Positions 31,957-36,424 of a DNA stretch of 36,653 bases are shown piece by piece. The stretch spans positions 1-36,653 of the forward strand of contig CAIXLI010000099.1 in the NCBI GenBank assembly GCA_903920205.1. The letters are read 5' to 3'. The notes below the pieces were generated by a model. It saw only the letters and a program-made list of their open reading frames with translations. It was not told the origin of the DNA and searched no databases. Numbering within the stretch: the first letter of the stretch is position 1; each line of letters starts with the position of its first letter. The translations under genes were made by a program, and so were the position numbers. This DNA comes from an uncultured Pseudomonadota bacterium. GTDB taxonomy: Bacteria > Pseudomonadota > Alphaproteobacteria > UBA9219.

Positions 31957-33180
31957 TCAGGCATCACGATGCTTCATAGAGATAAACCGCGCCAAGGCAA
32001 TGCTGATTGTTGCCGAAAGCAAATAAAACGCTATCAGGGTGGTCAGGCATTGCCGGAAAGATAAATCCATACCGCCACAAACCAGCAATAAAACGGCGAC
32101 TCCCATACGCGCCGTAAGAAAAAATAGCTCAGCAAGAACAAGCGCTTGATTTTTTCCGAAATGCCCCCATTCGCGCTCGATAACCTGCGAGGAGAAAGAA
32201 AACCAAATGGCATTGTAATTCACGCGGCAAAGCGCATAAGCCGCACCCGCAATCAAAAGCGTTTCAAACCTGAAAGACAGATCAAAACCTGCAAAGCCGA
32301 AGCCTATGCCCACAAGACAAACGCCAAGAATAACCCATCGCCGCCCAAGCAACCGGACCCGGTGGGACAAAGCAAGCGAGGCGAAAGCCAGCGCCGTTAT
32401 CAAGGCCGAAAACCAACCGACTTCGACCACCTTACCCAAAAGCGCGAAAGAAGAAAGAAGCAGCAGCGGATACATCAGGCATTCGCAAAAAATCGTAAAA
32501 AAGAACAAGCCTATCGCCGGAACATGATGCGCCTCGGCAACCGCCTTGAGAGGAAGCGCGATATTGCAAGGCAAGGGCGCATGGGGCATGCGCCGGATGA
32601 CGGGAATGGCAAAAAGAACGCAGAGCGCAAACGTCAAGAAGGTCGGAAAAAAGGCGTTGTGCAAGCCAAGGCGCGTGCCGACATAAAGCGTGCCCACCCC
32701 CAGCAATGGAGCCGCCAAAGCGAGGCTTTGCTGAATCAACCCGTTGACGGTCGCGTATCCATCACGCGCCCTGTCATCAATCCCGTTCAGACTTTTCAGC
32801 ATAAAAACGGCATAGAACATCCCCAATCCAAAACCGGCGGAGAGCGCAACACAAATTGGATGAATAAAAGCTGCGCAGATAAACCCGACTGCATGAATGA
32901 TAAACACCGCATACAAAACGGTTTCCGACTTCAACCCCCAAACAGCCCCATAGCGGCAAACGGCGGCATAGCCCACAAACGTCGCCATCGCATTCAGCGC
33001 GACATAAACCGCAAGCCCCGAAATCCCATGCAGAAAGGTCGCGCCGCTAAGAATAGCCAGCATCCCAAAAATCGCCGCCCCATTCAAAGCCATCCCCGAA
33101 AGGCCATTAACAAGGGCAAGCAAAACAAGATCCCGAGGAATCTCGTGCAGGCGGAGTTTGCGAGAAAGAAATGAAAACAT
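31957..33180 (-). CDS. MFS-type transporter of unknown substrate
   Basis: Integral membrane protein of 407 residues with about 12 hydrophobic segments and a short C-terminal tail, consistent with the major facilitator superfamily. The loop after segment 2 (CRYGAVWGLKSETVL) resembles the MFS motif A position but is poorly conserved. I cannot assign a substrate. I chose the ATG at 33180 over an adjacent TTG; AGGGG lies before it. It heads a minus-strand run with prmA, aminopeptidase, M16 protease and GNAT genes, although its function does not obviously connect. A 342-codon open frame runs antisense through it and is not a gene. Confidence 0.75.
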   Translation of the reverse strand: MFSFLSRKLRLHEIPRDLVLLALVNGLSGMALNGAAIFGMLAILSGATFLHGISGLAVYVALNAMATFVGYAAVCRYGAVWGLKSETVLYAVFIIHAVGFICAAFIHPICVALSAGFGLGMFYAVFMLKSLNGIDDRARDGYATVNGLIQQSLALAAPLLGVGTLYVGTRLGLHNAFFPTFLTFALCVLFAIPVIRRMPHAPLPCNIALPLKAVAEAHHVPAIGLFFFTIFCECLMYPLLLLSSFALLGKVVEVGWFSALITALAFASLALSHRVRLLGRRWVILGVCLVGIGFGFAGFDLSFRFETLLIAGAAYALCRVNYNAIWFSFSSQVIEREWGHFGKNQALVLAELFFLTARMGVAVLLLVCGGMDLSFRQCLTTLIAFYLLSATISIALARFISMKHRDA

Positions 33181-33474
33181 CAACTACCCCTACCACACTT
33201 TGACGCGACGTGTGATGCTATCGATGATCTACCTTAGCCCTGCCTACCATGTATTTTTGGTTAAGTCTTTGAAAAGCGTGGTGATGCAACAGGAATCAAA
33301 CATGTGTCCAAAGATTGGATTGTGGACACCAATGCCCCGACTTCCGATGATTGTGGAAATATCTGCGCACAGATCCAGTGTTCATATATCAGGCAGCCGA
33401 TAGCCCACGACTCATCCGCAGGGTTTGAACCTTCGTTATTTTCTGTTATAAAATCCGTATGTTGGGGGAAATTA
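33181..33474. promoter_or_regulatory. Divergent intergenic region with promoter for the TerD-like gene
   Basis: A good plus-strand promoter is visible: TTGAAC (33425-33430), 16 bases, TATAAA (33447-33452). The start of transcription would fall near 33459, leaving a short leader with GGGGGA before the ATG at 33475. CACAC (33191-33195) and GTGTG (33206-33210) could pair in the upstream part. Nothing else is recognisable. Confidence 0.6.
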
Positions 33475-34284
33475 ATGGCAACGCTACGCAGTTATACAAT
33501 CGACGCAACAAAGCAAGCGCGTATACGCGCCGGCATTAAATGGGATCCACTAGAGAGAGATGATATAGATGAACTCCACGCCTTCGGATCTGCAAAAGCC
33601 GCGCGGAAGAAATTAGCCTCCACACGCAGACACCTTGCTCGATTATCCCTGTTCGCACGGTTTCTTCACAAAATATCTTTGTTTAACCGTTGGGGCCGCA
33701 GAATCGACAGAATGCGTCAGCACAAACTGGCCGAAAAAAAGGCGCTGGAAACAACTTTGGCGCAGGAAAAACTGCATTCTTACGACTTAGATTTATGCTG
33801 TTTTTGTTACGACAAGGCAGGGAAACTAGTCGGGTTCGCGCTGCCGGATTTCACGGAAATGCACGGAAAGGCGGAATGGCAATCGTCGTTTCTCCATTCC
33901 GGAGACGATACTACGGGCACGGGCGACGCGTTTGACGAAGAACTGCTGATCAATCTGCATACTGCTGACAAGACGATTCACACAATTTTTCTCGTTGTCC
34001 TCTCTATCCATCATGGCTTTGATGAAATTAATGGCGGCTTTTGGTCTGTCGTCCACACGATGGGTGAAAAAGAGCTTATGTCGGCATTTCTAAAAACTAC
34101 GGAAAAACACAGAACCCATGTGATAGCCGCACTGACGCGCGACGAGAATTCATGGACTGTAAAAGAAATTGCAGAGTATTGCCCGATCGAAAACAATGAA
34201 AAAAATTCTTTGCAAAAGCGGATCGATCAGATGCTTAGATCGCGCTATCCGGTAATGGCCTGTGGGTCCAAGGACGACAGATGA
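33475..34284 (+). CDS. TerD-fold protein with basic insertion
   Basis: This 269-residue protein has a TerD (tellurite/stress) fold, split in two. Residues 15-25 (ARIRAGIKWDP) match the first strands and GWDP turn. The domain resumes at YDLDLCCFCYD (103-113). The calcium-site block follows at about 142-155 (SGDDTTGTGDAFDEE), then LLINLHTADKTIHTIFLVVLSI. The intervening 77 residues form a Lys/Arg-rich, probably helical insertion instead of the usual short loop. A promoter ending just upstream and GGGGGA fix the start at 33475; an earlier GTG at 33304 lies before that promoter. TerD proteins bind calcium and act in membrane or envelope stress. Its exact role here is unknown. It converges on the type I secretion exporter. 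Confidence 0.72.
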   Translation: MATLRSYTIDATKQARIRAGIKWDPLERDDIDELHAFGSAKAARKKLASTRRHLARLSLFARFLHKISLFNRWGRRIDRMRQHKLAEKKALETTLAQEKLHSYDLDLCCFCYDKAGKLVGFALPDFTEMHGKAEWQSSFLHSGDDTTGTGDAFDEELLINLHTADKTIHTIFLVVLSIHHGFDEINGGFWSVVHTMGEKELMSAFLKTTEKHRTHVIAALTRDENSWTVKEIAEYCPIENNEKNSLQKRIDQMLRSRYPVMACGSKDDR

Positions 34285-34354: not shown

Positions 34355-36424
34355 CTAAACAAGGATTTTATCGCGAGGCCCGTCTGCAAGAATTCGCGAT
34401 TGCCCAACAACAATAATGCGATCACAGACAGCCAAGATGCTCCGGCTGTGTGTGCTCACAAGGATTGTTGACATTCCTCGCATTTGCGACAACTGCTCTG
34501 ATAAATGGTTTTCAAGGGCCGCATCAAGGCCGTTTGTCGGCTCATCAAGGAGAATAAGCGGCGGCCGGGTTAACAACGCTCGCGCCAAAGAAACCATTTG
34601 ACGCTGTCCTCCTGAAAGGCTGCCTCCACGCCCACCAACCTCTGTCATCCAATGTAAAGCGTTCTCATTGAATGCGCGCGAAAGCCCTGACGTTGTCAAA
34701 ACGTCACGCCGCATTTCAGTAGTCATTTGAGGGCGTCCAGCGCGAACATTGTCCTCAATCGTACCGTCGAGCAAACAGAAATCCTGAGGCTTAAAACCGA
34801 TGTTAAGAGAAATATCGTCTAGAGAAAGCCTTTCCAAAGGAATATTATCAAACAATATTCGTCCTTCATCTGGCTCAATAAGCCCCGCGATCAAACGTAA
34901 CAATGTTGTTTTTCCGGCACCCGGTGCTCCGGCAATACCAACCAACTCTCCTGGATTTATATTAAGACAGATACTGTTGAGAACAGGCGTTTCGTTCTGG
35001 CGCAAGCGGCAGGTAACATTATCTAAACGCAACGCCCCTTGTAACCTGCCATGCCTCTTTGTCGTCGGGGCGCGAACGGCTGCAGGAATGAGCTGATTTA
35101 ATTCGCGCAATGCGGTGCGAAACTCACGATAACGCAAAAGCAACGTATTAACAGAAGAGAAAGCCCCCATCGTCCGTGATGTTAATAACGAGGCAGCCAA
35201 CAAACCTCCGGAAGTCAGGCTGCGCTCCTCAACCATATAGACACCGCCGACAAGAACACCGATAAACGACAGATAAGAAATACTACTGGTAATCGTCATC
35301 CCCATCCCTCGCCAGTAGCGCGCCTTGCTTGCGGACTGAACCGAAGAGACGCTCGCCTGACGCCAACGTTCGGCAAGTTTATTGCGCAGGGCGCTACCAA
35401 TGACGGCTTCACGTGAGGTAATAAGGTCTGTCATCAGCCCAAAACGACGCGCACTCGCGTCGCGTGATTGTCGATCATAATCAAGCACAGGCTTGACCAT
35501 AATCACGCTCGAAACCAGCATCAATCCACCGCAAACAAGCGAAACAAGAACTAGGGGGCCAGACGCGACAGCAATAGCCAACAAGAACAAAAGTAGAAAA
35601 GGAAGATCTGCTAGCGCCAAAATATAAGACGATGACAAAAAATCACGGAAAGAAAGGATTTGCTTATATTTCTCAAGCAGCCCTCCGATTGTCGGCATTT
35701 TGTTCGCGCGCGTATCAAGCAGATTGTGAAAAGTCGCACAGTCGATTTCGACCTCGCTGCTAACGGCAAACCGCTCGGCAACATTGATGCGAATGATGCG
35801 AACACAAAATTCGATACAGACAACGATCCCAAGCCCAATGACTAGAGCCCATAAGGTTTCGAGGATGCCATTCCCCAATATCTTATCGTAGACAAAACTG
35901 CTGAACAGCGGCAGCGTGAGGCCGAAGATGTTGACGACAACTGCGGCAATAAACAAATCGCCGAAGTGCGTTCTATAGCGCTGAAAAAAGGGCGCGATTG
36001 CCCCCAAGCTCATGATGGATTCGTTCAGAACCCATGAACTAACGGCAGCGCCAAGAAGCGCCTCATCACAAATCCCGTCAGCCTGCCCCGTTTCAGAAAG
36101 AACAACAGCTTCCTCGTTCCCACCCAAAAGAGCGGCCCAACCTCCGTCGCCAAATTCCAAAAGGCATCCTATACGATCATTTGTCGAAGGAATGATGCCG
36201 TTAACAAGGGCAACTTTCTTTAATTCAAAACCGCTCCCTCGCAGCAAGTCCGCGAGAGCGGCAAGGGAATCCACGGCGGATATATCATCGATATATCCGA
36301 CCGCACTGAGCAAAACGCGCGCAGCGCTATGCCAATCCATATCGGCACAAACGGCATCATCGTCGTGTACGCCGACATCTCCGTTTTGAATTTGCTTGAG
36401 GCGCTGAAAAACTTGAATGGTCAT
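34355..36424 (-). CDS. Type I secretion ABC exporter (LapB/HlyB-like)
   Basis: Inner-membrane ABC transporter that exports proteins directly through a HlyD- and TolC-type channel. The 689-residue protein has three parts. Residues about 30-130 form a degenerate C39-like domain without an evident catalytic cysteine (LLSAVGYIDDISAVDSLAAL, then GDGGWAALLGG). Residues about 145-430 form the membrane domain. The nucleotide-binding domain carries Walker A GAPGAGKT (499-506), signature LSGGQ (603-607) and Walker B LILLDE (623-628). The inactive C39 region points to substrates with C-terminal signals, as in RTX adhesins, not to leader-peptide bacteriocins. It starts 6 bases after the upstream gene's stop, so the two are in one operon. 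The adaptor subunit gene is not in the window. Confidence 0.92.
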   Translation of the reverse strand: MTIQVFQRLKQIQNGDVGVHDDDAVCADMDWHSAARVLLSAVGYIDDISAVDSLAALADLLRGSGFELKKVALVNGIIPSTNDRIGCLLEFGDGGWAALLGGNEEAVVLSETGQADGICDEALLGAAVSSWVLNESIMSLGAIAPFFQRYRTHFGDLFIAAVVVNIFGLTLPLFSSFVYDKILGNGILETLWALVIGLGIVVCIEFCVRIIRINVAERFAVSSEVEIDCATFHNLLDTRANKMPTIGGLLEKYKQILSFRDFLSSSYILALADLPFLLLFLLAIAVASGPLVLVSLVCGGLMLVSSVIMVKPVLDYDRQSRDASARRFGLMTDLITSREAVIGSALRNKLAERWRQASVSSVQSASKARYWRGMGMTITSSISYLSFIGVLVGGVYMVEERSLTSGGLLAASLLTSRTMGAFSSVNTLLLRYREFRTALRELNQLIPAAVRAPTTKRHGRLQGALRLDNVTCRLRQNETPVLNSICLNINPGELVGIAGAPGAGKTTLLRLIAGLIEPDEGRILFDNIPLERLSLDDISLNIGFKPQDFCLLDGTIEDNVRAGRPQMTTEMRRDVLTTSGLSRAFNENALHWMTEVGGRGGSLSGGQRQMVSLARALLTRPPLILLDEPTNGLDAALENHLSEQLSQMRGMSTILVSTHSRSILAVCDRIIVVGQSRILADGPRDKILV

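Follow-up and report, generated by a model that had tools for sequence, protein, structure and literature searches.

A TerD-domain protein with a predicted helical arm rooted between its two sets of calcium-site residues

The 36,653-nucleotide stretch of DNA analysed here, which comes from an uncultured alphaproteobacterium and is referred to as the window, contains a gene whose product shows the TerD pattern interrupted by 77 residues, and this raises the question of what such an insertion is and what it could do on a TerD domain. On what TerD and its calcium do biochemically, a passage of PMC8123226 states that little is known of the activities of TerB to TerE, and an excerpt of PMC7159879 mentions that TerD possibly recognises specialised nucleotide derivatives. 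The Micavibrio passages of PMC3189940 do not mention tellurium. A natural arm variant could help to reveal what this poorly understood family touches in cells.

The gene encodes 269 residues with no internal stop, and the two closest orthologues begin at the residue equivalent to its ATG at position 33475 (Table 1). The protein matches Pfam PF02342 with 44.5 bits (cut-off 25.3, E = 1.5e-11) over residues 94-234 only; when residues 26-102 are removed, the match reaches the N-terminal strand, extending over profile positions 18-174 (30-174 with the insertion in place) with 46.5 bits. A phmmer search retrieves the solved TerDs 2KXT (E = 7e-06) and 3IBZ (E = 1.1e-05) over residues 102-232, PHROG 5698, the function of which is unknown, covers residues 15-241, and NCBIfam returned no match for the protein. 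By every available test, namely profile, fold and calcium-site residues, the protein is a TerD, as the preliminary description had proposed from the pattern on both sides of the insertion. It is the single TerD of the genome assembly (2.3 Mb, 228 contigs).

Table 1. Coordinates of the features of the TerD gene in the window
Feature	Position	Strand	Basis or remark
TerD-domain gene with predicted helical-arm insertion	33475..34284	+	Open frame; PF02342; full-length orthologues 49% and 48% identical
Probable ribosome-binding site GGGGGA, separated from the ATG by 5 bases	33464..33469	+	Sequence; putative
KWDP (residues 22-25), end of the N-terminal strand	33538..33549	+	W23 aligns with Klebsiella TerD Ca2-site residue 29
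77-residue insertion (residues 26-102)	33550..33780	+	Predicted helices 29-38, 40-60 and 67-100
Long arm helix, residues 67-100	33673..33774	+	Predicted; matching helix 71-102 in the L008 model
D104-L105-D106	33784..33792	+	Aligned with Klebsiella TerD Ca1-site residues 40-42, as listed in an excerpt of PMC8779313
D144-E155 loop: D144, D145, E155 (Ca1); G148, G150, D154 (Ca2)	33904..33939	+	Alignment to the sites listed in the same excerpt

Since KWDP and YDLDL (residues 103-107) delimit it on the two sides, the insertion comprises the 77 residues 26-102, which confirms its extent, and the block SGDDTTGTGDAFDEE follows at residues 142-156. The AlphaFold2 model, computed from an alignment of the protein itself, two orthologues and 28 viral TerDs, has a mean pLDDT of 82.1 and shows the TerD sandwich with three predicted helices in the insertion. 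The long helix is predicted with block pLDDT values of 90 and 92 for residues 71-90 and of 77 for residues 91-100, and the first arm helices are of low confidence (49-72). The model of the orthologue L008, the arm of which differs in sequence (mean pLDDT 86.1), also predicts helices at residues 28-35, 40-55, 62-66 and 71-102, the two models being not fully independent because they have alignment rows in common. The helical character first suggested for the insertion is thus upheld by prediction in both proteins. In VIA-align, the window model aligns to the solved TerDs with Z-scores of 18.0 (2qng), 17.9 (3ibz), 17.8 (2qz7) and 15.5 (2kxt), at rmsd values of 2.5-3.7 over 161-180 aligned residues; the other high rows are 9a6r_B (Z 17.8) and 7jtk_A (Z 14.4), and the next rows have a Z of 4.3. 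We rejected the possibility that the insertion is a separate standard domain, because searches with the insertion on its own found nothing in Pfam or the PHROGs at E up to 1 and chance-level matches only among PDB sequences (E = 0.25 and 0.44).

An excerpt of PMC8779313, which credits Pan 2011 for them, lists the calcium-site residues of Klebsiella TerD as 40, 41, 42, 78, 79 and 89 (Ca1) and 29, 82, 84 and 88 (Ca2). Transferred with a viral TerD as the numbering reference, these positions correspond to D104, L105, D106, D144, D145 and E155 for Ca1 and to W23, G148, G150 and D154 for Ca2, so that nine of the ten listed positions are identical in the window protein and the remaining one, N79, is replaced by Asp. 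On this mapping the site residues are intact, in keeping with the calcium-binding block recognised earlier, and the insertion is flanked by W23 of Ca2 on its N-terminal side and by D104-D106 of Ca1 on its C-terminal side. From these residues the protein would be expected to bind calcium. In addition, F153 occupies position 87, at which all 52 other proteobacterial domains have Asp; we rejected a loss of the calcium site through this residue, since position 87 is not among the ligands listed in that excerpt.

Compared with the solved PF02342 TerDs (Klebsiella 2KXT; Streptomyces 3IBZ and 2QZ7; 2QNG), the window protein is therefore alike in profile, beta-sandwich and both sets of calcium residues, and it differs by the predicted helical arm in the inter-site loop, by DLDLCC in place of DLDAS, and by the Phe in place of Asp at position 87. 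With length counted from WD to the residue preceding DLD, this loop has 5-24 residues in 90 other TerD domains (52 proteobacterial and 38 viral), against 77-81 in the window family with its four copies. In the TerZ-type TerD proteins of Proteobacteria, the same loop exceeds that of TerD (12-20 residues) and is often KK..GLFGF-like; it is about four times shorter than the window arm, and these proteins belong to a different clade. The novelty lies in how large the arm is and where it sits, the inter-site loop being enlarged about four- to tenfold in one clade, and we found no TerD subfamily of such a form described in the open-licence literature, which agrees with the earlier impression.

Further close counterparts are long-loop TerDs with a DLDLxC signature from another alphaproteobacterial order, that of genome G348 (loci L091-L094 and L130-L147), which have the signature and the insertion site of the window protein. 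L091-L094 carry an arm of 78-81 residues and fall into one clade with the window protein, while many of L130-L147 have membrane-like hydrophobic loops that cannot be related in sequence to the window arm. Trees were built on the core only, with the arm excluded, so that the loop cannot drive the topology. The eight arm-bearing proteins form one clade, with support of 100/99 in the tree of 97 rows and 100/100 in that of 65 rows; it consists of four window-family proteins and four from the other order, with the window family nested within the latter. The arm thus has a single origin in the eight known proteins. A neighbouring group (99/96) consists of further long-loop proteins. In the 65-row tree 25 long-loop proteins lie on one side of a branch supported by 94/81, and on the other side are the remaining 40 rows, which include the outgroup and the long-loop L143 and L144. 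L018, with a 40-residue loop, was missed by the pattern and added to the tree by hand, where it is an outlier on a very long branch. Among the eight, the Ca1 residues are nearly intact (Asn or His at D40 in three, Met at L41 in one), and of the four Ca2 residues the second G005 copy has two altered and G775 has one.

In the order of the window, a TerD was found in three of 33 genomes (G000, G005 and G015), with the orthologue profile and Pfam in agreement, and all are of the inserted form; the orthologue profile adds a second inserted copy in G005, and a scan of genome contigs returned the G015 and G005 orthologues only. TerD matches occur in 12 of 385 genomes of the class and 36 of 398 of the phylum, the only full-length match being that of the window itself. 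In the order of G348 they occur in 125 of 142 genomes and are nearly full-length in four (G894, G891, G902 and G775); the search counted one TGA inside the G902 match, the open frame of which reads 269 residues. No inserted TerD was found in viral contigs with the orthologue profile, nor in plasmids or phages, where one Deinococcus plasmid TerD matches the core of the window protein only; a mobile or viral origin was rejected, as these sets hold nothing homologous to the protein over its full length. The patchy presence in the order of the window, together with the low GC of the TerD gene (0.477, against 0.530 for the window), fits acquisition by transfer, which is only suggestive because the secretion gene next to it likewise has a low GC (0.500). 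In the order of G348, gatB adjoins the long-loop genes L097, L107 and L109 as well as the short-loop genes L013 and L108 (tblastn), a pattern that growth of the loop in situ would produce. In that order, 16 of 37 short loci and three of ten longer ones have a gatB homologue next to the TerD gene.

We tentatively propose, with a confidence that falls a little short of even, that the window protein carries a calcium-positioned interaction arm that docks on a membrane or on a protein. Occupancy of Ca2, at W23 before the arm, and of Ca1, at D104-D106 after it, would fix both roots, and the orientation of the arm would then be set by calcium. The arm could subsequently dock on a surface, for which the cytoplasmic side of the inner membrane or a protein in that membrane is the most likely candidate. 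The protein would then serve as a tether or adaptor that depends on calcium or stress, by analogy with C2 domains. Of the steps in this scheme, docking on a particular target is the least certain, and it is mainly this step that keeps our confidence low.

The lead towards the membrane comes from the related loops. On hydropathy scales (octanol, KD19), ten of the 21 other long loops have a Wimley-White octanol sum no higher than -7.6, and for nine of these ten the clustering p is < 0.05; in 11 of 21 the hydrophobic stretch is more clustered than in shuffles (p < 0.05), for which the Fisher value of 2e-9 is overstated because the rows include near-copies. Several loops, such as those of L131, L135, L136, L139 and L140, have octanol sums of -12 to -14 and read as transmembrane-like in sequence, and those of L143, L144, L015 and L142 are plainly polar. 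In the window arm the hydrophobic stretch does not differ from shuffles (p = 0.31) and its KD19 value of 0.58 is lower than in the core, so that a hydrophobic tip was rejected as not significant; the best amphipathic stretch has a moment of 0.67 (p = 0.09). None of the eight clade members has a clustering p < 0.05 (Fisher p = 0.20). Homology between the window arm and the hydrophobic loops was likewise rejected, as profile comparison with hhalign detected no relation (probability < 1). For the window protein, membrane docking is thus a lead from kinship and position and not a result. Proteins in the range L131-L140 with transmembrane-like stretches at the calcium pole may be monotopic membrane proteins.

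A second reading dispenses with the membrane: the arm would dock on a specific soluble protein, or dimerise through its long helix, with the TerD domain providing calcium control. The long, regular predicted helices, a length that is constrained while the sequence is free, and the only weakly hydrophobic character of the arm would all suit such an interface. The sequence comparison within the window family is less favourable. Identity to G015, G005a and G005b is 77, 73 and 47 of 138 residues in the core (103-240) and 18, 17 and 13 of 60 in the arm (35-94), and such rapid divergence of the arm relative to the core would be surprising in a conserved interface. In addition, no conserved neighbour names a partner, at the window locus or in the loci of the relatives, and the related loops are often membrane-like. 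We regard this reading as rather unlikely.

The low identity of the arm also fits a simpler explanation, in which the loop is an insertion-tolerant site and the arm a spacer that itself contributes little to function. Loops in the order of G348 vary widely, from 6 to 84 residues; most have 6-24, and longer ones have 50, 55 and 61 or 66 and 49 residues, with 40-84 in the measured members of 20 loci. The finding of no TerD in 30 of the 33 genomes of the window's own order points in the same direction. However, the arm keeps a length of 77-81 residues in eight of eight clade members from two orders despite its divergence in sequence, its proximal root (26-34) is conserved (7, 6 and 4 of 9 identical to G015, G005a and G005b), and the four window-family copies have no internal stop. 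The arm is thus constrained in length and free in sequence, and we consider a mere spacer unlikely.

The basic character of the arm, which had been suggested to serve binding of nucleic acid among other targets, holds for the window protein, in which the insertion has 19 Lys/Arg and 9 Asp/Glu (net +10); in the eight neighbouring genes, 23 of 2897 segments of 77 residues attain this charge. It does not extend to the clade, where the window family has net charges of +10, +3, +4 and +7 and the relatives G894, G891, G902 and G775 have +1, +3, +1 and +9, and several other long loops are negative; "basic" is therefore largely a trait of the window protein itself. Binding of RNA or DNA by the arm is accordingly improbable, since a charge that is not kept in orthologues or relatives counts against an ancestral role of this kind and the arm matches no known nucleic-acid-binding family.

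Returning to the calcium-positioned docking arm, a broader possibility is that TerD docks on membranes or other targets through its calcium pole, and that in one alphaproteobacterial lineage the loop there was enlarged into docking elements that range from membrane-like hydrophobic hairpins to the amphipathic basic arm of the window protein. TerD would then be the bacterial counterpart of a C2 domain, with an arm switched by calcium, an idea that we consider speculative and more probably wrong than right by a wide measure. C2 domains are beta-sandwiches with calcium sites at one pole, where their loops reach the membrane. The likeness is by analogy only. In a Foldseek search of the PDB with the window model, C2-containing chains appear as weak rows (E of about 0.4-1.0). 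A natural lineage that has enlarged exactly the inter-site loop, with membrane-like loops in some members, makes the contacts of the calcium pole directly testable.

The surroundings of the gene do not assign it to a known system. Unlike known ter-operon TerDs, it lies outside any ter operon (terZABCDE), with neither terB nor terC beside it; the TerC and TerB-domain genes of this genome are on other contigs (C139, C209), and in G715 they are on contig C34 together with its TerD genes. The survey of homologues revealed no shared neighbourhood. By eye, we take the neighbours of the relatives to be NifU-like (overlapping) in G005, UbiA-like beside the second G005 copy, uvrB in G015 and enolase in G902, and a function derived from an operon was rejected because the neighbours differ in each relative. 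A defence system was also rejected, as PADLOC gave no match. The upstream neighbour, on the opposite strand, is a membrane protein that looks by eye like an MFS member; this 408-residue product of 31957-33183 (-) has a multi-span transporter look and is matched by neither Pfam nor NCBIfam at E up to 0.1. The downstream neighbour at 34355-36424 (-) is type I secretion ATPase-like (best NCBIfam TIGR03375, 472 bits, below the cut-off of 693), and its GC3 of 0.496 is low, as in the TerD gene, so that the DNA at this end of the window may have been acquired.

TerD domains of related type also occur in multiple arrangements. L099, L102, L104 and L117 are frames of 408-429 residues, each with a tandem pair of DLDLxC-type domains, and at L132, L137, L138 and L139 two different TerD domains lie side by side, mostly both with long loops.
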